Shown here one piece after another: positions 1,602 through 42,368 of a stretch of DNA of 42,513 nucleotides. A program made the position numbers and the translations under genes. Positions within the stretch are counted from its first letter, which is position 1. Every line of letters begins with the position of its first letter. The notes beneath the pieces are model-generated. The model was not told the DNA's origin. It made no database searches and was given only the letters and a program-made list of their open reading frames with translations. Source of the DNA: Pirellulales bacterium (GTDB taxonomy: Bacteria; Planctomycetota; Planctomycetia; Pirellulales; Thermoguttaceae); the NCBI GenBank assembly GCA_016935315.1, contig JAFGRD010000040.1:1-42513 (forward strand), given 5' to 3'.

Positions 1602-3071
<1,470 letters not shown>

Positions 3072-3343
3072 GGTCGGGCTCCCCGGGAGATGACGAGGCA
3101 CGAACGCCGCCGGGCGGACTCGGCTTCGGCTTGCACCGTGGCACCGGCCGCCTCTTCAGCGTAGCAGCGCCGCGGTGGCGGGTCCACCCTCGGTGTCGTG
3201 CCACGCTGGTCGTTGGCCGTGCGTGTTTCTCCGTTTCGGTAAGTAGTGGTGCGCGTTTGGCTTACGGCTTAGTCCGCCGTGCCGTTTCGCCCCGGGGAGC
3301 CGATCTGGTGTTGACCGCCGGTTGCGGCTAGAATTTGCTGCCC

Positions 3344-6941: not shown

Positions 6942-8252
6942 ATGACCACCCTTCCCAAGATTTTCCGCGTTCGACAGACCTTCGAGGCACCGCGGGTCGC
7001 CGATGTCGCCGCTGAAGTCCACGCACAGCTCGAGCGTTTGCAGCTCGGCAAAGCGGTCCGGCCGGGCCAGAGCGTGGCGGTCACCGCCGGAAGCCGGGGT
7101 ATCGCCAGCATCCACCTGATCCTGCGCGCGATCGTCGAGCACCTGAAGGGGCTGGACGCCCGGCCACTGGTCGTGCCGGCCATGGGCAGCCACGGCGGCG
7201 GAACGGCCGAGGGACAGCGGCAGGTCATCGAATCGTACGGCGTGACCGAAGAGTTCCTCGGCTGTCCGATCCGCTCCGGCATGGAAACGGTCTGCGTCTG
7301 CGAGACGGCCGAAGGGTTTCCCGTCCACTTCGACAAGCACGCCTTCGAAGCCGATCACGTGCTGGTCTGCGGGCGCGTCAAGCCGCACACGCTGTTCGTC
7401 GGCGACATCGAGAGCGGGCTGATGAAGATGATGCTGATCGGGCTGGGCAAGTGCGCCGGGGCGACCGTCTACCACCGGGCGATCCAAGATCACAGCTTCG
7501 CCCGGATCATCCGCAGCGTGGCCCGGGAAGTGATCGCCCGCTGCCACATCCTGGCCGGCGTGGCCCTGGTCGAGAACGCCTACGATGAGACGGCCCTGAT
7601 CGAGGCCATCAGGCCCGAGCAATTCGAGGCCCGCGAAAAGGAGTTGCTCGTGCTGGCCAAGCAATGGCTGGCCCGGCTGCCGTTCTCGCACGTCGACGTG
7701 CTGCTGATCGACCGGATCGGCAAGAACATCAGCGGCGTGGGGTTCGACGCGAACGTTGTGGGGCGCAAGCACAACGACCACAAGGCCGTGGAAGACGAGT
7801 TTCCCAAGGTCAAGCGGATCGCCGTGCGGGGAATGACCGAACAGACGCATGGCAACTCGATCGGCATGGGCCTGGCCGAGTTCTGCCGCTCGCGGCTGCT
7901 GCGTGAAACCGACTTCCATGCGGTCCGGCTCAATGCGTTGGTCTCGGGCCACGTTTCGGCCGGCATGCCGCCACTGGACTATGAAACGGACCGCGAGATC
8001 CTCGAAGCGGCCTTGGGCACGATCGGCCTGACCGAACCACCTCGCGCGAAGCTGCTCTGGATCGCCAACACGCTCGATCTGGCCGAGGTGGAATGCTCGG
8101 CCGAATACCTCGAAGAAGCCCGACGCCGCGACGACCTGGAGATCCGCACCGATCTGCGCGACCTGCCGCTGGACGCCGCGGGCAACCTGCCGGATGACAT
8201 CTCACGACTTGCCGGGCAGAGCGGCCGCTGCCACGGGCAGGACGAGTCCTAA
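6942..8252 (+). CDS. DUF2088 / LarA-like domain protein
   Basis: 436 residues from ATG 6942 (MTTLPKIFRVRQ). The N-terminal half carries the family phrases VPAMGSHGGGT (78-88), GRVKPHT (144-150) and ESGLMKMMLIGLGK, which place it with the DUF2088 proteins related to the N-terminal domain of nickel-pincer lactate racemase LarA. The C-terminal half (IDRIGKNISGVGFDANVVGR) is a conserved extension. Whether it binds the pincer cofactor or racemises any hydroxy acid is unknown; no LarB, LarC or LarE homologue is in the window. No membrane segment or signal peptide is seen, so it should be cytoplasmic. Its stop overlaps the stop of the opposing M50 gene by four bases. A racemase function is not established. 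Confidence 0.8.
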   Translation: MTTLPKIFRVRQTFEAPRVADVAAEVHAQLERLQLGKAVRPGQSVAVTAGSRGIASIHLILRAIVEHLKGLDARPLVVPAMGSHGGGTAEGQRQVIESYGVTEEFLGCPIRSGMETVCVCETAEGFPVHFDKHAFEADHVLVCGRVKPHTLFVGDIESGLMKMMLIGLGKCAGATVYHRAIQDHSFARIIRSVAREVIARCHILAGVALVENAYDETALIEAIRPEQFEAREKELLVLAKQWLARLPFSHVDVLLIDRIGKNISGVGFDANVVGRKHNDHKAVEDEFPKVKRIAVRGMTEQTHGNSIGMGLAEFCRSRLLRETDFHAVRLNALVSGHVSAGMPPLDYETDREILEAALGTIGLTEPPRAKLLWIANTLDLAEVECSAEYLEEARRRDDLEIRTDLRDLPLDAAGNLPDDISRLAGQSGRCHGQDES

Positions 8253-10927
8253 AGCTTGAAGTTGAACGTGTGGCTGACGAACCGCCAGAGGCGCTTGCCC
8301 AGCGGCTGCCATTGGGTATGGATCTTGGCCCGGCCGCGCAACCCAATCTGCAACAGCTGGTTGGCGTCGTCCAGACGGCGGATCTCCACGATTTTGTACG
8401 CGGGCCCCGCCGAGGAAAGATTGGCGTCGAGCGGGGCCGAGTCATGCGGGGCATGCGAAGCCAGCTCACCGTCGACCGCCACGTAGTCGCCCGGCTCGTA
8501 TCCCTTTAGATCCGACGGATCGAGCAGGAGCCGCCCGCCGTATTCGTCGGAGATTCCAGCGTCGGAGATGTAGCGCAGCGACCACAGCCCGTCGGGTCCA
8601 CGAGAGTCTTCCACCTCGGCAGTCTGCGGCTCGGTAGCTTCCGGCTCGGTGGCCTGCGGCTGAGCGGATAGCACACCGGCGACCGGTTCGCCGAGGGATT
8701 CTGCCTCTCCGCTTTCCTGGGGCGGATACGGTGTGAATTCGAGTTGGCCGCGCAGCCAGTGATACTCGGAATCGTGGCCATAGAGCCCCAAGGGGGCATG
8801 GGCCGGATAGAACGTGCCTTGGGTCTTCTCCTGGCCGGTTTTTGGGTCGGTCATGCTCGGCAAGTCACCCCCCGACTTGGCCGCCAGACGTCGCGGGCAG
8901 GCGGCCAGCGGGTCTTCGGCAATCGAGACGATCTCGCTGTGAAGGATCTCGTGGGGCAGGTTGTCCAGCTTGATCTCGACCTTGGGACGAACGGCCTCGT
9001 GCAACAGGCGGTTGACGAACTCGAGGTCCGTCTGGTCGATCGCGACCATGGCCTCCAACTGCTGGGGATCGCCGATTTGGCAGAAGAGCACGGCTTCGGG
9101 CAGATGGCAGCCGAGGTTTTCGGGATCGAAGGGCGTGCCCGACCAGGTGCGTAGCTGGCCTTCCGCTTCCGGCTGGCTGGGGATCGCGTCGGGGGGCAAC
9201 ACGATGCCGCCGACCGGAGCCACCAGCCGCAGTCGGGTCCGATCGGCCTCCCGTTCGTCGATCTGTTGCCGGATCGTCTCCAACGATTCTCGCAGCGCCG
9301 GCAACTCGGAACTTCGTAGCCGGATGTTGTGAGCGACGCGGGTCGCGTTGGCGATCTCCACTACGAGTTGCTGCTCCTTACCCCTGAGTCGGACCAGTTC
9401 CCGATCGATCTCGAGGTTCTCGAGTTGCGCAAGCGGTTGGCCGGCAACGACACGATCGCCGGGCCGCACGTAGACTTCGTCCAGGCGGCCGCCTTGTGCC
9501 ACGTCGACGTAGACGGGCACGGCGTCGCGAGGCTGGACTTCCAGAACGCCCAACACGCTGTGCGGCAAGGGAACGAAGATGAACGCCAAGACCACCGCCG
9601 TCAGCACACCCAAGCTCGTGTACATGCGTGGCTTTTTCACTTTATCGAGCCTCCCGGGCACGTAGAAGAACTTGCCCACCTTGTAGATCGGCATCACGAT
9701 CAATCCATACAGCGACATGGCAACGATTGCCTGGCCGATGATCTCCAGTCGGTACGGTTTGAAGAATTGGAACAGGAAGTACATGATCGACGCCAGGATG
9801 AACCAGCGATACATGACGGCCGCGACGGTATACAGCGCGAAAAAGATCTGGTTGCGTTGGGGCAGGAAGGGGTCTTCCGGCGATTCCAGTCCCAGACAGA
9901 GCTCGCCGAGCTTGCGGCTGAGGATCGTGGTCGACTTCTGACGCAGATTGGGGATCTCGACAAGGTCGGCCAGGATGTAGTAGCCGTCGTAGCGCAGCAG
10001 CGGATTGGCGTTGAAGAAGATCGTCGTCACCGAGGCCACGAACATCACGTTCAGGCAGAGGTTATGGAACAGCCCCGGCTCGCTGAACCACCACAAGAAC
10101 GTGGCGATCGAAGCCAGCGTGACCTCGACGAAAATACCGGCTGCTCCGATGAACGCCCGCTGCCACTTGCTGGGCAGCATCCAGGAATCGGACACGTTGC
10201 AGTACAAGCAGGGAGTGAGCACCAGGATCATGATACCCATCTCGTGACACTCGCCGCCGAAGTGTTTGCACATCAGCCCGTGGCCGAACTCGTGCAAGAT
10301 CTTGGTCAGTCCCAGCGTCACCGCCAACAGCAGGGCATTGTAGACGTTGAAGAACTGATAGAAGCCGGGCAGCTTCGAGTGGAAGACGTCCCATTCGACC
10401 AGCACCAGCGTGGCCGCCACCGTCCACAACATCAAGCACAGCACCAGCACCGTGGGAGTGAAGAGAAAGCGAACTTTGGGATAGAGCCAATTGAGCCACC
10501 GTTCAGGGTCGAAACCCTTGAAACGAACACAGAGAATGTTGCTGCAGGCGGCCAAGAGCTCCTTGCGCCGCCGCTCATCGCGCCGCTTGCGAAGCTCATG
10601 GCCCTGGCCCGCCGCCCCGGCGATGATCAACCCGCTGCGGTGCAACATGCCGAGGAACTGCTGCAACTCCTCGACCGTGATCTTCTGCGGAGGAAACTCC
10701 TCCTCAAAACGCTCCTTGATCTCGTCCAGGCTGGTCTGCCCGTCGAGCATCTGCAGAATCGCGTACTCTTCGTCCTGGAACCGGAAGTAGTTCAGCCCTA
10801 CGGGCTCCTTAACCACCCAGTAGCTGCGCCCCAGGTACTGCTGGCGGCGTGCCGAGAGATCCGGCCGCATCCGGACGGGGAGCTTCCGGGCGGAGCTGGA
10901 AACCAGGCTGTCGGAAAGTGTCGCCAT
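8249..10927 (-). CDS. PqqD-like / M50 site-2 protease-like / HlyD fusion membrane protein
   Basis: 892 residues from ATG 10927. Residues 15-105 resemble the PqqD-type winged helix (FRFQDEEYAILQMLDGQTS). Residues 150-460 hold about eight to ten hydrophobic segments with a zinc-protease motif HEFGH at 212-216 and a downstream NANPLLRYDGYY (307-318) supplying the usual Asp ligand. From about 465 a periplasmic adaptor region begins with a lipoyl-like hairpin (VYVRPGDRVVAGQPLAQLEN), a short coiled coil, and beta-barrel segments to the end. Such fusions recur in Planctomycetes beside HlyD genes. The conserved zinc ligands suggest an active intramembrane protease, but the substrate is unknown. It is last in a three-gene minus-strand operon, 27 bases after the small HlyD gene. 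Confidence 0.85.
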   Translation of the reverse strand: MATLSDSLVSSSARKLPVRMRPDLSARRQQYLGRSYWVVKEPVGLNYFRFQDEEYAILQMLDGQTSLDEIKERFEEEFPPQKITVEELQQFLGMLHRSGLIIAGAAGQGHELRKRRDERRRKELLAACSNILCVRFKGFDPERWLNWLYPKVRFLFTPTVLVLCLMLWTVAATLVLVEWDVFHSKLPGFYQFFNVYNALLLAVTLGLTKILHEFGHGLMCKHFGGECHEMGIMILVLTPCLYCNVSDSWMLPSKWQRAFIGAAGIFVEVTLASIATFLWWFSEPGLFHNLCLNVMFVASVTTIFFNANPLLRYDGYYILADLVEIPNLRQKSTTILSRKLGELCLGLESPEDPFLPQRNQIFFALYTVAAVMYRWFILASIMYFLFQFFKPYRLEIIGQAIVAMSLYGLIVMPIYKVGKFFYVPGRLDKVKKPRMYTSLGVLTAVVLAFIFVPLPHSVLGVLEVQPRDAVPVYVDVAQGGRLDEVYVRPGDRVVAGQPLAQLENLEIDRELVRLRGKEQQLVVEIANATRVAHNIRLRSSELPALRESLETIRQQIDEREADRTRLRLVAPVGGIVLPPDAIPSQPEAEGQLRTWSGTPFDPENLGCHLPEAVLFCQIGDPQQLEAMVAIDQTDLEFVNRLLHEAVRPKVEIKLDNLPHEILHSEIVSIAEDPLAACPRRLAAKSGGDLPSMTDPKTGQEKTQGTFYPAHAPLGLYGHDSEYHWLRGQLEFTPYPPQESGEAESLGEPVAGVLSAQPQATEPEATEPQTAEVEDSRGPDGLWSLRYISDAGISDEYGGRLLLDPSDLKGYEPGDYVAVDGELASHAPHDSAPLDANLSSAGPAYKIVEIRRLDDANQLLQIGLRGRAKIHTQWQPLGKRLWRFVSHTFNFKL

Positions 10928-10954
10928 TTCGTGGGAGTCCGGTTCGCGGGGACC

Positions 10955-11893
10955 CTATTTCGCTGCCCTCAAATCGATCGTCATCTCGGCCAGCAGCCCC
11001 GGGCCCAACAGCCAGTCACCGGACGCCGTGCGCCGATTCTCGACTTCGGCCCAGACCTGGTACTCGCCCTCCCCCTGCACCATTGGGTTGGCGAAGACGA
11101 TCGAGCCGGTGAATTTCTCTTCGCGGCCGCGCTCCAACTGGACGGTCACCGTCACCGGCCGGCCCTTGAGTTCGCCGCGGGCCACCTGGCGCATGTTGAC
11201 GAAGCCCTCGACGCGCAGGCGGTCGAGCCGAACAATGTGCATCACGGGATCACCCGGCTGCACCCATTCGCCCTTGTGGCGATACAGCTCGACGACCACG
11301 CCGTTGATAGGCGTCTTGATCTTGCGCCGCTGGAGGCCCTCGTCGGCCGCCTTCACCTCCGCGACACTGACCTCGGCTTCAAAGCCGGCGATCTCTTTGT
11401 CCATCTTGGCCTGCTTGATTTCAAACTGCGTTTTGTGATACGTCAACAGCAGGCGCCGCATCTCGGCCGGCGTCACCGTTCCCAGGTGACGCTCGTTGGC
11501 ATCCTCACCCTGCCTGTATTCGGCCGCCGCCACCAGGGAAGCGGCCTCCGAGTACTCGATGTTCGTGGTGTTGTTGGCCTTGGCGACCGCCACTTTCTGC
11601 TTGGCCACGGCCACTTCCTGCTGCCGCAGGGCCCGCGTATCGTCGATCTGGGCCAACAACGTCGCCTCCTTCTGCTGGGTGCTGTCCTCGGCGAACACCT
11701 GATCGCCCTCTCTGACGTAGATGTCGCGCAGCACACCGGCCTCCTCCGCCGGCATCTGCACCTCTTCAATCAACGAGACCAGACAGCTTTCGACCGACAC
11801 CGTCCCGGCCGGCGAGGTCGAGTTCTGCGCGCCCACCACCAGCGGGATGCCCGCCGCCAGAAGGACTCCAAACACAATCATCGGCACTTTCAT
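10955..11893 (-). CDS. HlyD-family periplasmic adaptor (membrane fusion protein)
   Basis: 312 residues. ATG 11893 (MKVPMIVFGVLLAAG) is chosen over longer in-frame starts because it begins a signal peptide or anchor of about 22 residues and is preceded by GAGGAAG. After it comes a half lipoyl motif (GVLRDIYVREGDQVFAED), a long alpha-helical hairpin (about residues 75-175, rich in Ala, Lys, Glu and Gln), the second lipoyl half (IKTPINGVVVELYRHKGEWVQPGD) and a beta barrel. This is the standard domain order of a membrane fusion protein that links inner-membrane machinery to an outer-membrane channel. Neighbours are GAF-HlyD upstream (83-base gap) and M50-HlyD downstream. No ABC or RND transporter accompanies it. 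Confidence 0.87.
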   Translation of the reverse strand: MKVPMIVFGVLLAAGIPLVVGAQNSTSPAGTVSVESCLVSLIEEVQMPAEEAGVLRDIYVREGDQVFAEDSTQQKEATLLAQIDDTRALRQQEVAVAKQKVAVAKANNTTNIEYSEAASLVAAAEYRQGEDANERHLGTVTPAEMRRLLLTYHKTQFEIKQAKMDKEIAGFEAEVSVAEVKAADEGLQRRKIKTPINGVVVELYRHKGEWVQPGDPVMHIVRLDRLRVEGFVNMRQVARGELKGRPVTVTVQLERGREEKFTGSIVFANPMVQGEGEYQVWAEVENRRTASGDWLLGPGLLAEMTIDLRAAK

Positions 11894-11976
11894 GAGCGAC
11901 TTCCTCGCATCGCGTAAGAGGTTGGCTGGTGTGTATCCATCGCCCCCCGGATCGTGTGATCCGTACACCCAAAGGC

Positions 11977-14718
11977 TTAGAAGTATCGGAAGAGAATCCG
12001 CGACTGGACAAACGCGATCAGATCGTGGAACCAGACGTAGCCGATGGGCCGGCGGCCGCAGTAGACGTTGGCGGTGACCGTGGCCCCGGGGCGAAGGTCG
12101 GGCAACTGCTCCTTGTCGATGGCCACCTTGATCAAAACGGTGTTGCCTTCGTCGCCCCGGACCTCGGCGTTGAGGTGAATCTCCTCGACCTTGCCCGGCA
12201 GTTTGTTGCTCGGGTCGATCGCCAGGATGTACGTCACCGGCAGCCGGTCGTCCAGGCCGTCGTCCAACGCATCGCGCAGGCCTTGGCGAAGCTCCCCGTC
12301 GGGCAAGCCCACCATCAGCCGTTGCACCCGCGCCCGGGCCTGTTCGTACGAGCACGAGCCGGCGTCGATCGCGTCGACGACGCCCTGCAACGTGAAACGC
12401 AACTCGGCGGTCAGCAGGCTCTTTCCCGAGGTTTCCACCGCCGACTCTTGCGGCGGCGGGTCGACTGTTTCTTCCGGCGATGCGGTTGTCGTTTCTGCCG
12501 TCCCTTCCGCCGCGGGCGTCTCATCCACCGCCGGCAAGGCCGGCTGGTCACGTTCGAGGATCTCGCCGATCGCATTGCGCAAGTCGGGCAGCAGCTCGTC
12601 GGCCAACAGCTCGCGTAGCTTCGGCACCAGTTGGCGGTCCGTCACCTTCTCGACCGCGGCCTCCACGTCCAGCTCCGGTTCGTCCGCCTGCCTCTTGCGG
12701 GTCACCTCGCGGAGCTTGTCGCGCAACTGGTCGTACATTGCCTGCTGGGCCATGCGGATGTGTCCCATGCGGTCATCGGCCATCTGGAGTTCCACCCGCC
12801 AGGGGCCGGAAGGATCGGCTACCCGCAACAGCACTTGGCCACGCTGCACGGGACGACGATTCAGTCGGTCGTAGAGGTCCCACGTAACCACTTGGCCGTT
12901 GATCGGGCTTGTGACCTTGAGGTCCTCCAACTGACGGTCGTACAGTTCAAGCTGCTCCTCATAGTTTGCGAGCTCCACCCTGAGCTTTGCAATGTCTCCG
13001 GAGACCTCAGCCCTCTTGTCTCGCGTCAACGTTCCTCCAGAGCCCAACAATTGCAGGTCTTTGTTGATCTCCTTAGTGGTCGCATCGCGCCGGCCCTCAA
13101 GGTCTTCGATCGCTACCTTCAATTCGGTGGTGGGGCGAAGCTGGACCAGCAGGACGTTCATGTTCTGCCGCACGCTCTCGATCAACTCTCCGGCCGAAAC
13201 GTCGCGCCCGCCGTGCCGGATGCGTATGGCCTCGACGGTTTTCCTCGCAGTCTGCGCGTCGATGCCCGCGGCGAGCATCGTCTGTCGGATCACGTGGAGC
13301 ACGTCGGCGTCGACCAAGACGGCCGGCGAGGTAACGAACTGCTTGCGGAGCACGCCCTCGACCTGGTCCGCCACGTCGGTCGTGTAGACCACGTCGCCGT
13401 GTTCGACGCGTACGTCTTCGACTACGCCTTCGATTCGCGCGAAGACATCATTGCGGATCACCGGCTCCAGGGTGCCCTTGGCCTGGATCTTGAAATCGGC
13501 CGGCCAAACGGCCAAGGCCACCAGTGACGCCAGCACGAGGCCGGTGATGGTGAGCGTCTTGGGTAGGGTGCGGGCGCGCAAGACCCACTTGGCCTTGCCC
13601 AGTGTGCGCCACACGGGCATCAGGAACAGGCTCTGGTGCTCCAGCGCGTTGGCCAACGCCGTCGAGCTGTGGCGGCAGACGACTTCCACTCGCTGCACCA
13701 TGCTCTGGGGCACGCGGCTGTCTTCGATCTGCTCGACGATCAGCGCGCCGATGGGCGGCTCCGGCGAGTCTCGCTTCTTGGGATCGTCTTCCTCGCCTTG
13801 TTCCGGGCGCTTCAGCGGCAAGACGGCCACGTTCTTCGAGTGCGATTCATCGACGTATTCTTGGATAGCGTCTTCGACCTGCGGGGCCATGTCGCGGGTG
13901 TCGCCGGCGTACCAGATCGGATCGCCGGTGGCGACCACGGCCGAGGCCAGCTTGCCCAGCAGCCGGATGGTGTTGGAGCGCTTGTCGAAGAGGTCCTGTC
14001 CGCTGACCGCCTCGATCCGGCACTTGGTTCCCTTGCGAATCGCCACGCTTACGCGGTCACACTCGATCAGCCGCCGGCCTTCGTTGGCGATCGTGTAGGC
14101 CGTTTCGCGGGGATCCAGCGCGGCATGGACCACGTGAGTGAATTCCTCCAGCTGCGTCCAGAGCACCTGGCGGTCGGAGAAGTGCCGCAATTGATGGCTC
14201 TTGAGGAAGTCGGCCGCCAACTCGCACATCTGCATCATGAAGCGCAGATATCCCTTCTGCGTATTGGGACCGGCCTCGCTGCGCTGGAAGATTTCCAGGA
14301 CGCCGACCGTTTCCAAATCGGTCTTCAGCGGTCCAAGCACCAGGAGGAAATCGGTGGGATTGGCGGCCTGACTGTCGTCGCCCGAGCCCGCGTGCGGCGG
14401 TACGAGCATTCCTTCCGGCGTTTGCAGCGCGTTGTACAGCAACCGACTGTGCTGGATCTGTCCCTCTTCGTTGTCGCGAAGTTTGGTCTCTTGGATGTTG
14501 ATCTGGTACTGCAATGCCAGACGGCGGTCCTCATTGACGGTCCAGACCGCGCCGCCGACGGCCGCCAGCGCGGAGACCACGCGGGTGAGGAACTGACCGT
14601 AGAACTCCTCTGGGGTGAGGTCCTCCTTTGACAATTGGGCAATCTCGCTCACCAGTGAGCGGATCTGCTGTTTCGTCTGTTCGATCAGTTGAGGGTCGAG
14701 AGATGATTCGGTGCTCAT
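11977..14718 (-). CDS. GAF-domain / HlyD-type adaptor fusion protein
   Basis: 913 residues from ATG 14718 (MSTESSLDPQ); a TTG four codons earlier is possible but less likely. The N-terminal 360 residues are cytoplasmic and contain one or two GAF-like domains; the clearest (about 195-360) includes ALDPRETAYTIANEGRRLIE and RVSVAIRKGTKCRIEAVSG. A single membrane span lies at about 388-405. The periplasmic part starts with GTLEPVIRNDVFARIEGVVE (lipoyl-like), includes long helices and an unusually long insert rich in Pro, Glu and Thr, and ends in a beta barrel. The layout suggests a small-molecule or redox sensor tied directly to an export adaptor, an inference from domain order. It is first gene of the operon with the HlyD and M50 genes. 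Confidence 0.82.
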   Translation of the reverse strand: MSTESSLDPQLIEQTKQQIRSLVSEIAQLSKEDLTPEEFYGQFLTRVVSALAAVGGAVWTVNEDRRLALQYQINIQETKLRDNEEGQIQHSRLLYNALQTPEGMLVPPHAGSGDDSQAANPTDFLLVLGPLKTDLETVGVLEIFQRSEAGPNTQKGYLRFMMQMCELAADFLKSHQLRHFSDRQVLWTQLEEFTHVVHAALDPRETAYTIANEGRRLIECDRVSVAIRKGTKCRIEAVSGQDLFDKRSNTIRLLGKLASAVVATGDPIWYAGDTRDMAPQVEDAIQEYVDESHSKNVAVLPLKRPEQGEEDDPKKRDSPEPPIGALIVEQIEDSRVPQSMVQRVEVVCRHSSTALANALEHQSLFLMPVWRTLGKAKWVLRARTLPKTLTITGLVLASLVALAVWPADFKIQAKGTLEPVIRNDVFARIEGVVEDVRVEHGDVVYTTDVADQVEGVLRKQFVTSPAVLVDADVLHVIRQTMLAAGIDAQTARKTVEAIRIRHGGRDVSAGELIESVRQNMNVLLVQLRPTTELKVAIEDLEGRRDATTKEINKDLQLLGSGGTLTRDKRAEVSGDIAKLRVELANYEEQLELYDRQLEDLKVTSPINGQVVTWDLYDRLNRRPVQRGQVLLRVADPSGPWRVELQMADDRMGHIRMAQQAMYDQLRDKLREVTRKRQADEPELDVEAAVEKVTDRQLVPKLRELLADELLPDLRNAIGEILERDQPALPAVDETPAAEGTAETTTASPEETVDPPPQESAVETSGKSLLTAELRFTLQGVVDAIDAGSCSYEQARARVQRLMVGLPDGELRQGLRDALDDGLDDRLPVTYILAIDPSNKLPGKVEEIHLNAEVRGDEGNTVLIKVAIDKEQLPDLRPGATVTANVYCGRRPIGYVWFHDLIAFVQSRILFRYF

Positions 14719-15074
14719 ACCGTTGCTCAATTGCCAAGAGAAGCCCTGGTTACGCGCGCAACTGCCCTACCTCCTGTTTACACGCTTACCAACCTATCCT
14801 CAATGCTAGCACACGCCAAATCAGCCTGCAGAGCGCCGGAAGGCTTCCCGTACGCCGCACAATCTGAGTATTCGTCGCAAACCACGGCCGAGCATAGACA
14901 AGTTACCCTCATTATTGGAGAATTGAACGAACCCGAACATACCCTGATTGAGGGATTCACCAAACGGAGCCGTTGGCGTCGTTTCCGGTCGAGCTGACCT
15001 GGCGCTGGTGACTTCTCGAGCGAATTCGGCCCCCATGAGGCGGGGGCATCCTTTGGCGGCTCGCTGCGGTCGCG
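14719..15074. other. Intergenic region between GAF-HlyD and GlpF genes
   Basis: These 356 bases hold no supportable gene. They should contain the promoter of the three-gene GAF-HlyD operon (minus strand, reading away to the left) and the end of the glpF transcript. The only clear structure is the hairpin at 15029-15047. A moderately AT-rich patch lies near 14880-14950. Confidence 0.5.
15029..15047 (-). terminator. Possible terminator hairpin after the GlpF-like gene
   Basis: GCCCCC (15029-15034) and GGGGGC (15042-15047) form a perfect 6-bp stem with a 7-base loop, 27 bases past the glpF stop codon on the minus strand. No T-run follows, so factor-independent termination is doubtful. Confidence 0.3.
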
Positions 15075-17505: not shown

Positions 17506-17913
17506 TTACACGTGCACGGGCGTGCCGGGCTCGAATACGCCGTCGGCGACCCAGCAGACGGCGACGTCTTCCCAGTCGCGCTCGGCCGAAGCGTCGATAT
17601 GCCGTGTCCAAGCATCCGTGCTCGTGTCTTTGGCGATCTGCCCAAGTTGCATGGTCATCGCGGCGTCGTTGAGCACCACGGCCGACCGCTGCATCCCTTT
17701 CTGCCTGTAGAGCCGTTGACCCTCGTGCAACAGCGGCAGGACTTCGGGCGGCAGCGACTCCAAGTCGCGCATATCCACGACCAACCCGAACTCCGGAGGA
17801 GCCGAGGCCAGGATTCTCTCCGATCCATCGAGCCACTGCTTCATCTCGCCGACGCCGATGCAACCCGAGAAAGTCAATTTGAATCCGTAGATCGCCGATT
17901 CAATCTTGTACAT
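17506..17913 (-). CDS. SpoIIAA/STAS-like small protein
   Basis: 135 residues. ATG 17913 (MYKIESAIYGFKLTFSG) is chosen because GGGAGAG lies about seven bases upstream and the longer frame lacks features. The pattern, an alternating beta strand and helix with EFGLVVDMRDLESLP and EGQRLYRQKGMQRSAVVLND, resembles the SpoIIAA-like/STAS fold that binds partners in signalling or, in some members, small lipids. It has no signal peptide or membrane span, so it should be cytoplasmic. It follows the two ATP-grasp genes on the same strand after 184 bases, so it may belong to their transcript, but the gap is long enough for its own promoter. Family placement is by general pattern only. Confidence 0.6.
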   Translation of the reverse strand: MYKIESAIYGFKLTFSGCIGVGEMKQWLDGSERILASAPPEFGLVVDMRDLESLPPEVLPLLHEGQRLYRQKGMQRSAVVLNDAAMTMQLGQIAKDTSTDAWTRHIDASAERDWEDVAVCWVADGVFEPGTPVHV

Positions 17914-18097
17914 AAGTTCTCTCCCAAGAGCCCTGCTGGTCGGCAGCCGGAGCACGAGAACCATCGTGCATCGCCTGCCGCCGTCGTTGCGCATCTCCTC
18001 GGGGGCCAATCGCTTTCGCCGCCGGGCAGACCGTCCCACGCGCTCAGTTTAATCATAGCTCACGACTCGGAGCGCGCCGGCCACGACTCGGCGGTGG

Positions 18098-19141
18098 CTA
18101 GAGAGTACACATGTCGACATTGTCGAAATTTCGGCCGTAGGCTTTCATGTAGTGCGACTTTCGTTCGAGTGCTTCAATTACGTACTTGGTGAAGTTGACC
18201 TTGGTGAACTTCTGGGCGCTGCCGAGGCCGCCGGGGCTGAAAACGTTGATCTCCATCAGTCGGTCGCCCACGATGTCGAGACCGACCAGAAACATCCCGT
18301 CCTGAACGAGCTTCGGACGCACCGTCTCGGCGATGGCCAGTGCATGGTGGTCGATTTCAGCGGGGGCGAGCTTTCCGCCGGCGTGAATGTTGCTGCGCAT
18401 GTCGCCGCCGCTGCGAACGCGGCCAAAGGCGGCGTACTTGCCTTTCACGCGCAAGGGCCGTCCGTTCATCAGAAACAAGCGAGTGTCGCCCTCTTGGGCC
18501 GCGGGAAGGTACTGCTGCGCTATCACGAAGCCGTCGCGGCTGACCGCGTCGATCATTTGGTTGATGTTCGGCACGTCTTCCGGACGGACCAGAAACACTC
18601 CCGCTCCGCCGGACCCCTGCAACGGCTTCAGCACGATGGTGCCCTCGCTCTGCGCGAACGCCTTGATCTCCTCCCGGTCGCGGGTGATCACAGTTCGCGG
18701 TCGCACCTCCTCGGGGAATAGCTGGAAGTACATCTTGCTGGACGCCTTGGCCAGCCCGTTTGGATCGTTCACTACGATGACGCCGTGCCGCATGGCAACG
18801 CGTCCGAACTCGGCGGCCGCGTTCGTGGCCCAGGGCCGCTTGATATAGTCGTCGGACGGAACGTTGCGGAGCATCAAGACGTCCAACTCGTCGACGGTGA
18901 TGCGCTGCCTGTCGGCTTTGGGGCCCTGCAAGTCTCGCAAGAACGTCACATGGGACTTGTACGACTTCTTGGAGACGGTGCGGGCACGAGCCCGGATGAA
19001 CTCGTCCGGGTCGTAGGCGACGTCTCCCACACCAAAGACGAACGCCTCGTGTCCGTGGTTGATCGCTTCACAGGCGAGGCGGACCGTCGTGAAGCTCGCC
19101 TCTTCCGTCATCACGTCGTTGACGATAAAACCGATTCTCAT
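18098..19141 (-). CDS. GshB-like ATP-grasp ligase (copy 1)
   Basis: 347 residues from ATG 19141, with AGGAGGAGACC immediately upstream. Residues 1-120 form the N-terminal pre-ATP-grasp domain (MRIGFIVND). ATP-grasp features follow: Lys172 before the glycine-rich loop PLQGSGGAGV, the RSNIHAGG motif (249-256) and the metal ligands Glu297 and Asn299 in GLDIVGDRLMEINVFSPGG. The last motif closely matches glutathione synthetase GshB, a peptide-bond-forming ligase that uses acyl phosphate intermediates. The longer conserved tail (YMKAYGRNFDNV) is shared with copy 2 and is not a GshB feature I recognise. No gshA is present, so glutathione itself is an uncertain product. It is third in the operon after DUF1704 and copy 2. 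Confidence 0.85.
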   Translation of the reverse strand: MRIGFIVNDVMTEEASFTTVRLACEAINHGHEAFVFGVGDVAYDPDEFIRARARTVSKKSYKSHVTFLRDLQGPKADRQRITVDELDVLMLRNVPSDDYIKRPWATNAAAEFGRVAMRHGVIVVNDPNGLAKASSKMYFQLFPEEVRPRTVITRDREEIKAFAQSEGTIVLKPLQGSGGAGVFLVRPEDVPNINQMIDAVSRDGFVIAQQYLPAAQEGDTRLFLMNGRPLRVKGKYAAFGRVRSGGDMRSNIHAGGKLAPAEIDHHALAIAETVRPKLVQDGMFLVGLDIVGDRLMEINVFSPGGLGSAQKFTKVNFTKYVIEALERKSHYMKAYGRNFDNVDMCTL

Positions 19142-19249
19142 GGTCTCCTCCTGAATCTGAGATTGTCCGTTCTGGTTGCCGCCGAGATTCGGGGAGATCG
19201 GACGTCCGGTCGGCGACGGTCTCCAGACTCGACTGCGCGGCGCGCGGAG

Positions 19250-20281
19250 CTACAGCGTCGCCACTTCCACGTTGCTGAAGTTCCTTCGATAGGATTTCAT
19301 GTACTGGACCTTCTGCTGCAGCGCCTCGACGACGGCGCGCGAGAAATTGACTTTTTCGAACCTCTGGGCGCTCCCAAGACCGCCCGGGCTGAAGACGTTG
19401 ATCTCCATCAACCGGTTTTCCGCGATGTCCAGGCCCACCAGAAACATACCATCTTCGACCAACCGGGGCCGGACCATGTCGGCAAGTCGCAGCATGGCGT
19501 CGTCCACGGCGGCCCGGCGCAGTCTGCCGCCCGCGTGGATGTTGCTGCGGATGTCGTCTCCCGTGCGGATGCGTCGAAAGGCGGCGTGTCGGCCCTTGTA
19601 TTGCAGCGGAACGCCGTTCATCAGAAAAAGTCGCGTATCGCCCTCGGCCGCGGTCGGTAGATACTCCTGCGCAATCACGTACCCGTCGCGGCTGACGGCG
19701 CCGATGATCTCATCCAGGTTGTGCGCGTGTTCGGACCGGACAATAAACACGTTGGTCCCTCCGGAGCCCTGGAGCGGTTTGAGGATAAGCGTGCCTTCGC
19801 GCCGCAAGAACTCTTCGATGCGGGCGGGTGCGCGTGTGATTAGGGTCCGCGGTCGCACTTCCTCGGGCAACGTTTGCAGGTAGAGCTTGTTCATGGCCTT
19901 CGCCAAGCCGTTGGGATCGTTCAACACGATCACGCCGTGGCGCATGGCGAGCCGGCCGAAATGGATCCCGGCCGCCTGGGCCCACGGACGCTGCACCGAG
20001 GGATTGCTGCGCAGCAAGAGCACGTCCAGGTCGTCCACGGTAATCCACTGTTCGATTGCTCGGCGGGTCTTCAGAGTGTCGAGGAACCGGCGCGGCGTAT
20101 AGCGGCCACCCGGCACCGTGCGCGCCAAAGCGCCGACGGTGTCGTCGGGATTATAGGAGAAGTTCCCGGTGCTCATGACCCAGACGTCGTGTCCCAGGTT
20201 AACGCTTTCGGCGGCCAGACGATAAGTCGTCGCTCCGACCTCGCCGCTGTCCATCACGTTGACCACGAATCCGATTCGCAT
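19250..20281 (-). CDS. GshB-like ATP-grasp ligase (copy 2)
   Basis: 343 residues from ATG 20281, with GGAAGGAATC upstream. It is a paralogue of the next gene over nearly all its length: MRIGFVVNV start, NDPNGLAKA, Lys168 with PLQGSGG, the RSNIHAGG motif (245-252), Glu293/Asn295 in MEINVFSPGG, and the YMKSYRRNFSNV tail. All ATP and metal ligands expected for GshB-type ATP-grasp enzymes are kept, so both copies should be active. They differ most in residues 10-105, the region that would bind the first substrate, suggesting different substrates or successive steps. It lies 42 bases after the metallopeptidase gene, and 108 bases separate it from copy 1. Secondary alternative: RimK-type glutamate ligase. 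Confidence 0.85.
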   Translation of the reverse strand: MRIGFVVNVMDSGEVGATTYRLAAESVNLGHDVWVMSTGNFSYNPDDTVGALARTVPGGRYTPRRFLDTLKTRRAIEQWITVDDLDVLLLRSNPSVQRPWAQAAGIHFGRLAMRHGVIVLNDPNGLAKAMNKLYLQTLPEEVRPRTLITRAPARIEEFLRREGTLILKPLQGSGGTNVFIVRSEHAHNLDEIIGAVSRDGYVIAQEYLPTAAEGDTRLFLMNGVPLQYKGRHAAFRRIRTGDDIRSNIHAGGRLRRAAVDDAMLRLADMVRPRLVEDGMFLVGLDIAENRLMEINVFSPGGLGSAQRFEKVNFSRAVVEALQQKVQYMKSYRRNFSNVEVATL

Positions 20282-20323
20282 GATTCCTTCCGGCACCGGG
20301 TTGGGACTCGCGAAGCGCGCCGC

Positions 20324-22240
20324 CTACTTCACCAGGTCCAGGATGCCCAACTCTCGCGTCCGCAAAGTGGCCAACCGTTCAGCGGCTGCGATGCTCTCCA
20401 TGTACCGTGGTCGCAGCGGCGGATCGTGCAATACCTTGCGGAAGAGAAGCTCCTTGATGATCGGTACCTGACTTGCCGCAATCTTACCCACCCAGAGCGG
20501 CTTCAGGTCGTCGCCGTGTCCCAGGTACTTAAGGATCTGCCGAAGCCCTCTCAAGTAGATGGCGTCCTTGGTGAATCCTCCACCGCGGTAAATGCGCATG
20601 GTCGTCTTGAATACGCTCTGCTGCGGCAGGCCATACGTGTGGTGCAGCGTACGAAAGGTCTCGACAAACGAGGCACCCTCGGTCAACCGTCGGGCGGCCA
20701 CGACCCGCGCAGCCAACTGGCGCATTCGCGGATGGTCCAGGCCGCCGACCAGATACTCGGCCATCACCGCGAGCCCTTCCTGCAGCGCCTCGTAGCCCGC
20801 CAGGCCCGAGTAGAGCTGTCGAAACGGCTGTGCCCGGCCGTTGTAATACGTCAGCAAGTGCGTGCCGACCTCGTGCTGCAAGAGCGCCTCGACACGCGAC
20901 GGAGGCACGGTCGTGCTGCGATTGATCAGCAGCGCTCCCCGCGAAACCATGATCCCCACGACTCGGCCGGTGACTTCCACTCGCGGAGAGAAATCGGGCC
21001 ACTTGGCTCGGTAGTACTCGAATTCCGCTCTCGCCCGCTCCGCGAACGCCTTGGCGGTGAGCGGCGATTTGGCCGACGGGCGATTCGGTTCTTGCGGCAA
21101 CCGCTTCAGCAGTTCAATCGCAAGCTGGAGCAAGTCGTCCTCGACGCCGCCGTAGAGCTGGAGGCTGCCGTAGAGGAACCGCGGCGTATCGCGCTCGGCA
21201 AGCATCGTGATCTTGCGGTCCAGCTCCCATTGCTTCTCTTGAAAAACGTGCTGCAGTGCCGGGTCTTCCACTCGCTCGATGGGGATCTGATAGAGCTGAC
21301 GTTTGAGCAGAGACGGATCGAAGGGCGTGGGGCGATAGTGGAACTCCGGGACTCGCTCGAACCCGGCCTGCCTAAACCCCTGCCAGGCATCGTCCGCATT
21401 GACGGGTGTCAGTTGCAGCAGGAAATCGAAGGCGTTGCTGACCTCGGCCAACTGCCCGTCGATTTCCCAGACGGCTCTGACCACGGCACGTCGCCCCAAC
21501 TCGTGGTAGTGGGGCGGTCTGTGCGTGGTCTGCGAGAGCGTGAAGCGATAGAATGTCTGTCGGAGCGCCTGCCCCAGACTGCGGCGAAACTGCCGCATCA
21601 GAAGGGGGAACTCGGCGCCCGTCTTCAGATCGCGATAGACGGGCGGCACCACCAACCCAACGGTGAAAAGACCCAGGCCGGCCGCGTCCCGGGGGCTGAC
21701 CAGCGTCGGCATGCCCGGCGGAGCGGGCCGGCGGTCGTCGACAACCTCGACCTCAACGGCCTGCTTGAGCACGCGGATACGTCTGAGCCGGCGCGCCAGC
21801 ACGTCGAGGCTTTTGGCCAGCGTCCCAGTGGGGGGAGCCACGACCTGGAACGCTGGAGGCACGGAGGGAACGGCCGGGTCGGCCGACTGGCTCCCGCTGG
21901 GTCCCGCCCAGATTTCCACGATCAGAAATGCCCCAAATTCCGCCAGCATCGTCTTCCCGAGGCGGACCACCAGGCTGGAAACGGCCCGGCGATGCTTTGA
22001 CGATCCAGGCGCAATCAGGTACGACGCTTCGCCCTTGGCGAGCCGCTCCGTGCCCAAATCGTCCGTGCCGGGCGGACGGCGGTAGACGCACAGGAAAGGC
22101 AATTGCCGATCCATGTGCAGGCGCCCTTTGTCCGGAAGCGTTCGCCGAACCCGCTTGTTCTGCGACAACCGACGACAGACCGTGTCGATCAGTGCGGGAG
22201 AGATCTCACGTCTGGAGTTGGCTGCTCGTTTGCGTGCCAT
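20324..22240 (-). CDS. DUF1704 (QEGLA/MATCAP-type) zinc metallopeptidase
   Basis: 638 residues from ATG 22240, with GAGGTGAGG about 12 bases upstream. The C-terminal half carries the metal site HEVGTH (456-461, HExxxH) and the QEGLA signature (487-491) that supplies the third Glu ligand; this is the DUF1704 family. Its animal member MATCAP removes the last tyrosine of alpha-tubulin, so the fold is that of a C-terminal exopeptidase. Residues 1-240 are the usual N-terminal region (QLPFLCVYRRPPGTDDLGTE). No signal peptide is present. It is first in an operon with two ATP-grasp ligases, which suggests one partner adds and the other removes a C-terminal residue, an inference. A 103-bp palindromic repeat begins 24 bases upstream of the start codon. 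Confidence 0.88.
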   Translation of the reverse strand: MARKRAANSRREISPALIDTVCRRLSQNKRVRRTLPDKGRLHMDRQLPFLCVYRRPPGTDDLGTERLAKGEASYLIAPGSSKHRRAVSSLVVRLGKTMLAEFGAFLIVEIWAGPSGSQSADPAVPSVPPAFQVVAPPTGTLAKSLDVLARRLRRIRVLKQAVEVEVVDDRRPAPPGMPTLVSPRDAAGLGLFTVGLVVPPVYRDLKTGAEFPLLMRQFRRSLGQALRQTFYRFTLSQTTHRPPHYHELGRRAVVRAVWEIDGQLAEVSNAFDFLLQLTPVNADDAWQGFRQAGFERVPEFHYRPTPFDPSLLKRQLYQIPIERVEDPALQHVFQEKQWELDRKITMLAERDTPRFLYGSLQLYGGVEDDLLQLAIELLKRLPQEPNRPSAKSPLTAKAFAERARAEFEYYRAKWPDFSPRVEVTGRVVGIMVSRGALLINRSTTVPPSRVEALLQHEVGTHLLTYYNGRAQPFRQLYSGLAGYEALQEGLAVMAEYLVGGLDHPRMRQLAARVVAARRLTEGASFVETFRTLHHTYGLPQQSVFKTTMRIYRGGGFTKDAIYLRGLRQILKYLGHGDDLKPLWVGKIAASQVPIIKELLFRKVLHDPPLRPRYMESIAAAERLATLRTRELGILDLVK

Positions 22241-40910: not shown

Positions 40911-42368
40911 TCACGGTTCCACCTGGCGGTCCCACGGCTGTGGTGGCGTCGGGTCGTATTTCGGCCAGGCGTCTTTCCTGGGGCACGACCGGACGACCGT
41001 TTCGAGCCTGTTCCGGGCGGCGACAATCTTCGGATCGGTGCTCTGAAGCAGGTTGATTGCTTCCGCCGGGTCGGCTTGCAGATCGTAGAGCCTGGCCGGG
41101 CGCCCGTCGAGCACCCAGAGTTTGTACCGCTTGTCGCGGACCACGCGGTCGGTGAATTCCTGCTTCGGGGCAACTCCCTTCGCGGTCAGCCGGGCCGGCC
41201 CGTGCCCCAGAGCCATGATCCACTCGCGCGGCCCGCGGGTCTGCTTACCGAGGATCACGGGGGCGATGGATTTGCCGTCGATCACCAGGCCCTCGGGAAG
41301 CTCTGCCCCGCCCAACTCGGCAAAGGTGGGCAGCAGATCCGTGAAGTCGGTCAGCACGTCGGTCACTCTGCCGGCAGGTACCAGCCCGGGACAGTTGACG
41401 ATCAGCGGCTCGCAGACGCCGTTCTCGCCTAGCTTCGCCTTGCCGCCGCGGACCAGCCGGCCGTTAATCCGCGCGCTGAGACCCCCGGCCGAGCCGTTGT
41501 CGGTCGTGAAGATCACGATCGTTCGCCGGCGGATCTGTAACTCGTCCAGCGCCGCCACCAGCCGGCCGACCACGTGATCGGCATAGCGGACCATGGCCTT
41601 GTGCCGTTCGATCTTGCCCTCGGCGTCCGGATCCAGCGGCGTGGTGGTCAGCGGGCTATGGGTCAGCGCCATGGGGAAGTAAAGCAACATCGGCCGGTCC
41701 TTCTCCCGCCGCATGAAGTCGATCAAGAACTCGACGAACACGTCGGTGCCGAAGCGGCCCTGGCAGGTTCCGCTGCCGTCGTTGGTGTGGACGTAGGCGT
41801 CCCAGTATCGCTTCTCGCTGCGCGGGTTGCCCGTTTCGTAGCCGGTCCACATGCACCACCGGTCGAAGCCGTGTTGCCGCATCACTTCGGGCTGGACGCG
41901 GAAGTCGTTGATCTGCCACTTCCCGGCCGCCGCGGTGGCGTAGCCGGCCGATTGCATCACTCGGGCGAAGGTCACGTTGTACTGGGGATCGAAGTGACAA
42001 CCGGCTCCCCAACGCGGCACGTCCCAGTGGTTGCACCAGCCGTTGCGCCACGGATACGTGCCTGCCAGCAGCGTCGCGCGGGTCGGCGTGCACTGGGGCA
42101 TGGAGTAGGCGTTTTCGAAGCGTATCCCGCCGGCGGCCAGCCGATCGATGTTCGGTGTTCTCATCTCCTGGCCGCCGTAGCAACTGATCCACTCCTTGCC
42201 CAGATCGTCGACCATGATGAAGAGGATGTTGGGTCGGACCACCGCCTCGGCCGCGGCGGCAACGCGCGGCAGGAAGGCGATCGAGAACAGCACGGTCAGC
42301 CACAGCGCGGCAACCGACGCGCGGCGGGTCGCGCGGCTGGGGGCCAAGAGAATGGAATCGCTTTTCAT
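40911..42368 (-). CDS. Secreted sulfatase (arylsulfatase family)
   Basis: 485 residues from ATG 42368, with a signal peptide to about residue 40 (WLTVLFSIAFLPRVAAAA). The mature part opens PNILFIMVDDLGKEW with the Asp54-Asp55 calcium pair. The formylglycine signature is Cys93-Thr-Pro-Thr-Arg97, in SMPQCTPTRATLLAGTYP. Further motifs are AAAGKWQIND, ALTHSPLTTTP and FTTDNGSAGG. The family hydrolyses sulfate esters outside the cytoplasm. No good ribosome binding site precedes the start; an upstream start beyond the window cannot be excluded. It is a different subfamily from the sulfatase at 1602-3071, with a distinct motif context, so the substrates probably differ. It converges with holB. Confidence 0.92.
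   Translation of the reverse strand: MKSDSILLAPSRATRRASVAALWLTVLFSIAFLPRVAAAAEAVVRPNILFIMVDDLGKEWISCYGGQEMRTPNIDRLAAGGIRFENAYSMPQCTPTRATLLAGTYPWRNGWCNHWDVPRWGAGCHFDPQYNVTFARVMQSAGYATAAAGKWQINDFRVQPEVMRQHGFDRWCMWTGYETGNPRSEKRYWDAYVHTNDGSGTCQGRFGTDVFVEFLIDFMRREKDRPMLLYFPMALTHSPLTTTPLDPDAEGKIERHKAMVRYADHVVGRLVAALDELQIRRRTIVIFTTDNGSAGGLSARINGRLVRGGKAKLGENGVCEPLIVNCPGLVPAGRVTDVLTDFTDLLPTFAELGGAELPEGLVIDGKSIAPVILGKQTRGPREWIMALGHGPARLTAKGVAPKQEFTDRVVRDKRYKLWVLDGRPARLYDLQADPAEAINLLQSTDPKIVAARNRLETVVRSCPRKDAWPKYDPTPPQPWDRQVEP

Follow-up and report, generated by a model that had tools for sequence, protein, structure and literature searches.

The window analyzed here, a stretch of 42,513 nucleotides from a Pirellulales bacterium (GenBank assembly GCA_016935315.1, contig JAFGRD010000040.1), carries a three-gene operon on its minus strand, in which the gene for a MATCAP/QEGLA-type metallopeptidase is followed by those for two GshB-like ATP-grasp ligases (ligase A and then ligase B). 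Comparison with other genomes revealed that this operon is a two-ligase variant, without N-formylglutamate amidohydrolase (FGase), of a widespread bacterial operon that has the order FGase, QEGLA peptidase and GshB-like ligase(s). We propose, with a probability of about 40%, that the encoded enzymes form a module that works in the cytosol to assemble a small peptide and to cut it back again; this peptide would probably be a glutamyl one, distinct from glutathione, and the module may have to do with the balance of cations or with osmotic balance. Three families named for other functions (flavohemoglobin expression, glutathione and formylglutamate) recur here as one multi-phylum operon. This recurrence predicts a common, so far undescribed peptide metabolite or tag, and the operon supplies a bacterial setting for the MATCAP family.

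As an earlier note made from the sequence alone had described, the three genes lie on one strand, with 42 bases between the peptidase and ligase A and 108 bases between the two ligases, and strong ribosome binding sites precede the starts of ligase A (GGAAGG) and ligase B (AGGAGG). That note had the three genes right and missed the FGase partner of the relatives, the N-terminal domain of the peptidase and the difference in subfamily between the ligases. Newly recognized here are the old A and B ligase subfamilies, the predicted FGase-fold N-terminal domain, the evidence on glutathione and the Mg2+ transporter neighbours. Testable hypotheses arise about the non-glutathione product, the pseudo-FGase domain, the two ligase specificities and the tie to Mg2+ transport.

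Distribution and gene order of the operon

The gene neighbourhood of the long-form MATCAP family is not due to chance. From a scan of named genomes, we examined the best 79 of 543 confirmed relatives (loci L074-L152), labelled as Planctomycetota, Poribacteria, Acidobacteria, Bacteroidetes, Calditrichaeota, Gammaproteobacteria, Magnetococcales, Campylobacterales and others. It should be noted that many of these loci are metagenome bins, for which single taxon labels may be wrong. The 79 loci carry 88 long-form MATCAP genes or pieces, 67 of which have enough flank to be counted. Using profile-matched stretches, a GshB-like gene was found downstream of 61 of these 67 genes, an FGase gene upstream of 49 and both beside 48; a cruder first count by the ends of open reading frames (ORFs) had given 59, 47 and 46. 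The earlier note had named the lack of a conserved neighbourhood in relatives as an outcome that would speak against its proposal, and this outcome did not appear. One ligase gene follows the peptidase in 50 cases, two in 8, three in 3 and none in 6; of the last six, one locus (L141) is devoid of ligase genes, and the remaining ones carry one in another position. Across all 79 loci, a GshB-like gene is present in 75 and an FGase in 66. In the first count, 29 of the 59 junctions between peptidase and ligase genes and 15 of the 47 between FGase and peptidase genes were four-base overlaps. All four FGase proteins tested exceeded the PF05013 cut-off. Tandem repeated peptidase-ligase units within one locus were seen in L037, L078, L080, L122 and L146.

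A similar association was found within the order of the window, where 17 of 196 genomes have MATCAP, 12 of them with the long form and 5 with the short form only (as judged by length). The strict ligase family NF009110 was over its cut-off in 11 of the 12 long-form genomes versus none of the 184 others (Fisher P 4e-17), and in the twelfth (G026) the ligase gene is in pieces. Across the phylum, 54 of the 392 genomes sampled have a MATCAP gene, long or short. Around short-form MATCAP genes (L024-L029 and L042), the fetched stretches showed neither an FGase nor a GshB-like gene; therefore, the operon link belongs to the long form. A 663-codon QEGLA gene of Vibrio sp. HDW18 and a 449-codon one of Pseudoalteromonas also had no such neighbour in their plasmid gene tables, which are incomplete. 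The same gene order, under the names N-formylglutamate amidohydrolase, QEGLA motif protein and glutathione synthetase, is present on Shinella and Aminobacter plasmids, and a Sinorhizobium meliloti plasmid has the FGase and QEGLA genes, followed by a gap in which the gene table is blank. In an excerpted listing, VV2_1203 (COG3930) precedes VV2_1204, a glutathione synthetase (PMC3091676). Among the matches listed in the open-access literature, no paper was devoted to this operon. The placement of ATP-grasp ligases beside peptidases, as a general kind, had reportedly been predicted already in a 2009 comparative paper on amidoligases.

The genome of the window, which is 95% complete, has one MATCAP match and two GSH-S_ATP matches, both of the latter in this operon. 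No FGase over the PF05013 cut-off was found in it, the one stray match having an E value of 0.44. A broken FGase remnant in the window was also considered and rejected, as tblastn with 39 FGases gave nothing better than E 0.06.

The peptidase and its N-terminal domain

The peptidase gene (20324..22240, minus strand) encodes a long-form MATCAP/QEGLA-type protein of 638 amino acids. It matches PF08014 with 310.7 bits (cut-off 27) over residues 288-624, which form the MATCAP catalytic domain (20369..21379, minus strand), and TIGR02421 with 341.2 bits (cut-off 338.65) over residues 261-625 only. HEVGTH, the predicted metal-binding and catalytic motif, and QEGLA were confirmed at residues 456-461 (20858..20875) and 487-491 (20768..20782), respectively, where the earlier note had placed them. 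Further investigation of 66 aligned relatives revealed that H456, E457, H461 and E488, the last being the predicted third metal ligand, are constant, and that V458, T460 and L490 are variable. The HExxxH motif, E488 and the R..R and KD..YL blocks, all invariant in these relatives, could be profile-aligned with human MATCAP. The AlphaFold2 model of the protein is confident (mean predicted local distance difference test score, pLDDT, 91.8), and the best PDB match of its C-terminal part is human MATCAP (Z 24.4, 290 residues, 3.0 Å). Further structural matches of this part are to DUF885 proteins and lipoproteins, at Z 14-16.5, and to M32 carboxypeptidases, at Z 10-11, scores that may mean little for helical folds. 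A carboxypeptidase-type active site is therefore predicted from these conserved residues. As stated in excerpts of a published study, the MATCAP pair removes C-terminal Tyr, Glu, Ala and Gly (PMC10499314).

The N-terminal third of the peptidase has no Pfam or NCBIfam name. When residues 12-243 (21512..22207, minus strand) were folded alone (pLDDT 92.7), the top match was the N-formylglutamate amidohydrolase 2q7s (Z 13.9, 180 residues, 3.3 Å), with the runner-up at Z 11.5. A Foldseek match to the FGase fold (E 5e-4) and an hhalign comparison of the domain profile with the FGases encoded in the operons of relatives (E 7e-6, probability 84%, 165 columns) pointed to the same family. Among 39 operon FGases, H37, H151 and H224 are invariant, and their D149-x-H151 is aligned opposite E109-x-W111 of the domain. 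No histidine of the domain reaches 90% of the 66 relatives; the best column, H42, stands at 86%, and this residue is present in 36% of 14 relatives from the order. As far as the two can be aligned, the domain lacks the three invariant FGase histidines, which are presumed metal ligands. Because the FGase fold and the profile match are present but the invariant histidines are not kept, the modelled domain is probably a degenerate FGase, that is, a pseudo-enzyme akin to the FGase whose gene adjoins that of the peptidase in most relatives. It may bind the true FGase in those relatives.

These hydrolase-like components raise the possibility of a breakdown or salvage pathway, in which glutamyl peptides, either acylated or gamma-linked, would be dismantled by FGase and MATCAP, and a product of this would be recycled or conjugated by the ligase. 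Such a pathway would agree with the two hydrolase-type genes that adjoin a ligase in 48 of 67 cases, and poly-gamma-glutamate hydrolases and desuccinylases are among the structural relatives of the N-terminal domain, with a middling Z that many other proteins share. We consider it very unlikely, given that the window has two ligases in a genome without an FGase over the cut-off, that two or three ligases lie downstream of 11 of 67 peptidase genes, and that none of the ten recurrent Pfam-named neighbours is a catabolic enzyme.

Two ligase subfamilies and the question of glutathione

Ligase B has 347 amino acids (18098..19141, minus strand). The ORF of ligase A extends over 19250-20296 on the same strand (348 amino acids from a GTG at 20296), and its likely start is the ATG at 20281, which gives a protein of 343 amino acids (19250..20281). 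Both ligases match PF02955 and PF02951 (GSH-S_ATP and GSH-S_N) and exceed the cut-off of NF009110 (PRK12458), which is 408 bits, with 450 bits for ligase B and 425.7 bits for ligase A, the latter computed on the 348-amino-acid ORF. At the positions that we take to be the lysines of the ATP-grasp, the acidic residues for metal and the lid in E. coli GshB, both ligases have the aligned residues intact, which agrees with the claim of the earlier note that their ATP and metal residues are preserved. By analogy, ATP-grasp ligase chemistry is expected for both.

A tree was built from 89 of 99 family rows (near-duplicate rows of ten loci were dropped) and two outgroup GshB-like rows; an earlier FastTree tree had used 99 of 100 rows. 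Ligase A joins eleven other ligases on one branch with a support of 100 in the Shimodaira-Hasegawa-like approximate likelihood ratio test (SH-aLRT). One row of the hand-picked FastTree set, L093_7909, falls outside this supported branch, which accordingly has 12 rows, not 13. Record labels of subfamily A include Planctomycetota, Rhodopirellula, Phycisphaerae, Gemmatimonadota, Verrucomicrobia and unclassified. Of the 12 A ligases, seven open a tandem pair or trio at their locus and the one of L081 comes second; the others stand alone or are flanked by a peptidase gene on either side. Ligase B lies outside branch A among the usual copies, in a 17-row set (support 99) that includes, among others, the second ligases from L078, L080 and L098. 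Because A and B fall in separate supported subfamilies, the ligase pair of the window is, as far as the tree can tell, an old paralogy, and a recent duplication was ruled out on the same ground. The earlier description of the two as paralogues stands in that both belong to the GshB-like family, but they are not alike in subfamily.

When 13 A rows and 72 B rows were compared (14 divergent rows were kept apart), the subfamilies differed at conserved sites, for example D9 of B versus V14 of A in the N-terminal loop, a site that presumably faces the substrate. A truncated GshB-like ORF of 168 amino acids was observed between the peptidase and the full ligase in Bythopirellula polymerisocia (L074, 7929-8435), with a matching stretch in L034 (9099-9605); it is perhaps a remnant of ligase A.

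Compared with E. coli GshB and the outgroup, the whole ligase family has other sequences in place of both the N-terminal (K)DSS loop and the C-terminal loop of TSPTCIRE type. The outgroup rows L054 and L055, GshB-like proteins from the same order, retain the canonical loops and are separated from the operon ligase family by a branch of 4.04 changes per column. The lid of ligase B, GDMRSNIHAGG, lies opposite GDFRSNLHRGG in an alignment with two chains of S6-glutamate ligase, 5zct and 4iwx, and the whole family shows the RimK-like lid RSN.H.GG, which we take to be a mark of glutamate use. Scores against the RimK-type model TIGR00768 (67.5 and 56.3 bits) did not reach its subfamily cut-off of 143.4, and ligase B is closer to E. 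coli GshB (141.8 bits) than to RimK (32 bits).

Ordinary glutathione synthesis, with GshA encoded elsewhere, would account for the annotation name 'glutathione synthetase' and for the likeness to E. coli GshB. Several results make it extremely unlikely. First, neither ligase reached the GshB equivalog cut-offs (NF003573, 212.4 and 194.3 versus 272; TIGR01380, 196.8 and 179.9 versus 299.05). Second, no match to the GshA families PF04107 or PF04262 was found at E 1 in the genome of the window (PF08886 was not searched), and the separate GshA that the earlier note had named as evidence for glutathione was thus not seen. Third, 15 of 30 carrier genomes, of unstated completeness, had no PF04107 match and none of the 30 had a PF04262 match (again PF08886 was not searched), so that both families are missing in 15. 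Finally, the long branch to L054 and L055, which keep the canonical loops, sets the operon ligases apart from GshB-like proteins of the same order.

A possible peptide module and its relation to known systems

In the proposed mechanism, the ligases would activate the C-terminal carboxylate of a small substrate as an acyl phosphate and then couple an amino acid to it, for which glutamate is the best guess because the lid is more like the one of RimK than the one of glutathione synthetase. The two ligases, A and B, might accept different partners or act in sequence, and the MATCAP domain would take C-terminal residues off again. The pseudo-FGase domain might serve to grip the substrate or, in relatives, be the docking site of the true FGase. 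The peptide level would be set by the balance of building and trimming, and in some lineages it may be connected with Mg2+ or osmotic balance.

RimK and tubulin tyrosine ligase (TTL) add amino acids to protein tails, and the module might likewise modify a protein C-terminus reversibly, the ligases adding one or more amino acids to a target tail and the MATCAP domain removing them. The RimK-type lid and the joining of ligase and carboxypeptidase genes in one operon are in line with this idea, as is the action of MATCAP relatives on protein tails according to excerpts of PMC10499314. It appears unlikely, considering that ligase B is closer to GshB, which acts on small molecules, than it is to RimK, that both ligases retain the GSH-S_N domain, and that FGase is left unexplained. 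Nor was a recurrent small target protein found beside the operon: among ORFs of at least 70 amino acids (shorter ones were not examined), no neighbour cluster was present in more than 11 of 79 loci. The add-and-remove system of the earlier note therefore stands as far as a conserved operon places a carboxypeptidase-type peptidase beside amide-forming ligases; nothing supports linking it specifically with the C-terminus of a protein, tubulin-like or otherwise, and it does not explain the FGase gene present in most relatives. The ligases are of the GshB/RimK group, and in Pfam and NCBIfam neither of them matched a TTL-family model (they were not compared directly with TTL itself). The evidence as such does not separate a protein tail from a small peptide as substrate; we rank the small-peptide version ahead, and both are live readings.

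The suggested cation or osmotic connection of the small-peptide module comes from the non-core neighbours. In the 79 loci, CorA was found in 9, MgtE in 7, CNNM/CorC in 7, SLC12-type permeases in 8 and MscS-like proteins in 5, and at least one of these in 25 loci. Chance expectation, from the density in the 30 carrier genomes (picked after the neighbours had been seen, and used here for density only), was approximately 0.14 loci each for MgtE and CorA; the Poisson values for this excess ignore shared ancestry. The neighbour profiles were built from clusters of the same 79 loci, and some matches are partial (CorA in L078 and L100, MgtE in L084) or weak (MscS in L100 and L127). In L112, the MgtE gene sits between peptidase and ligase, and an MgtE gene also adjoins the FGase-GshB-GshB locus of a relative found through its ligases alone (L159). 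In Photobacterium damselae at 1% NaCl, GshB (A0J47_RS17020) was up 38-fold and QEGLA (RS17025) 27-fold, as reported in excerpts of PMC10308900; the two genes bear neighbouring tag numbers. In addition, sigma-54 activator genes occur in 14 of 79 loci and represent a possible regulator.

Several points weigh against the proposed glutamyl peptide and its cation link. Glutamate as the coupled residue, our best guess, comes from one motif. None of the ORFs found in the 42.5-kb window is of the MgtE, CorA, CNNM, SLC12 or MscS type, and eight neighbour profiles, applied to 20 sources from the order (19 stretches plus the window itself), gave strong scores for just two genes, one SLC12-type and one sigma-54. 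Four of the nine CorA loci are from Poribacteria, and the cation link could be lineage-specific synteny. The low-salt induction may be peculiar to Photobacterium and is silent on mechanism. At 95% genome completeness, an FGase or GshA gene could have escaped detection, and the conservation of H42 in most relatives makes some function of that site possible. Because the window and the sources of the order are nearly without these transporters, the tie of the operon to Mg2+ transporters is lineage-dependent and correlative. A more far-reaching scheme, which we regard as quite improbable, would be an undescribed multi-phylum cycle in which one or two ATP-grasp ligases, together with a MATCAP carboxypeptidase carried on a scaffold of pseudo-FGase type, control the amount of a glutamyl peptide that binds cations or is osmotically active and that governs Mg2+ balance, the eukaryotic tubulin-tail peptidase being derived from it.

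Other genes of the window were also recorded. An ORF of 177 amino acids (17506-18039, minus strand), 58 bases 3' of ligase B, had no Pfam match and no relative among the ORFs of the fetched loci. An aquaporin/glycerol-facilitator gene (PF00230; 15075-15848, minus strand) lies ∼2.2 kb downstream of ligase B, and relatives of it occur within two short-form MATCAP stretches (L025 and L026). A three-gene run at 8249-14730 (minus strand) encodes M50 peptidase-like, HlyD-type and GAF plus HlyD-type proteins, and two sulfatase genes are located at 1602-3101 and 40911-42368 (both minus strand).

Among known systems, N-formylglutamate amidohydrolase (PF05013) has the same fold as the N-terminal domain of the peptidase but differs in its conserved histidines; its gene is upstream in 49 of 67 relatives, but the genome of the window has no match over the cut-off. 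Both ligases are members of the glutathione synthetase subfamily NF009110, which is a subfamily name; its members here span the A and B types, without the canonical GshB loops. The GSH-S_N and GSH-S_ATP domains are shared with E. coli GshB and the RSN.H.GG lid with E. coli RimK, although the equivalog cut-offs of the former and the family cut-off of the latter are not reached. On the ligase side of the tubulin tyrosine ligase cycle, no TTL-family match was found in Pfam or NCBIfam. The peptidase exceeds both curated cut-offs of the MATCAP family, PF08014 and TIGR02421 (flavohemoglobin expression-modulating QEGLA motif protein), the latter name being also borne by the relatives on Shinella, Aminobacter and Sinorhizobium plasmids; these models do not extend to its FGase-fold N-terminal domain, which has no match in Pfam or NCBIfam. 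Although this domain differs from that of human MATCAP (KIAA0895L), the two proteins have the catalytic fold and metal motif in common.

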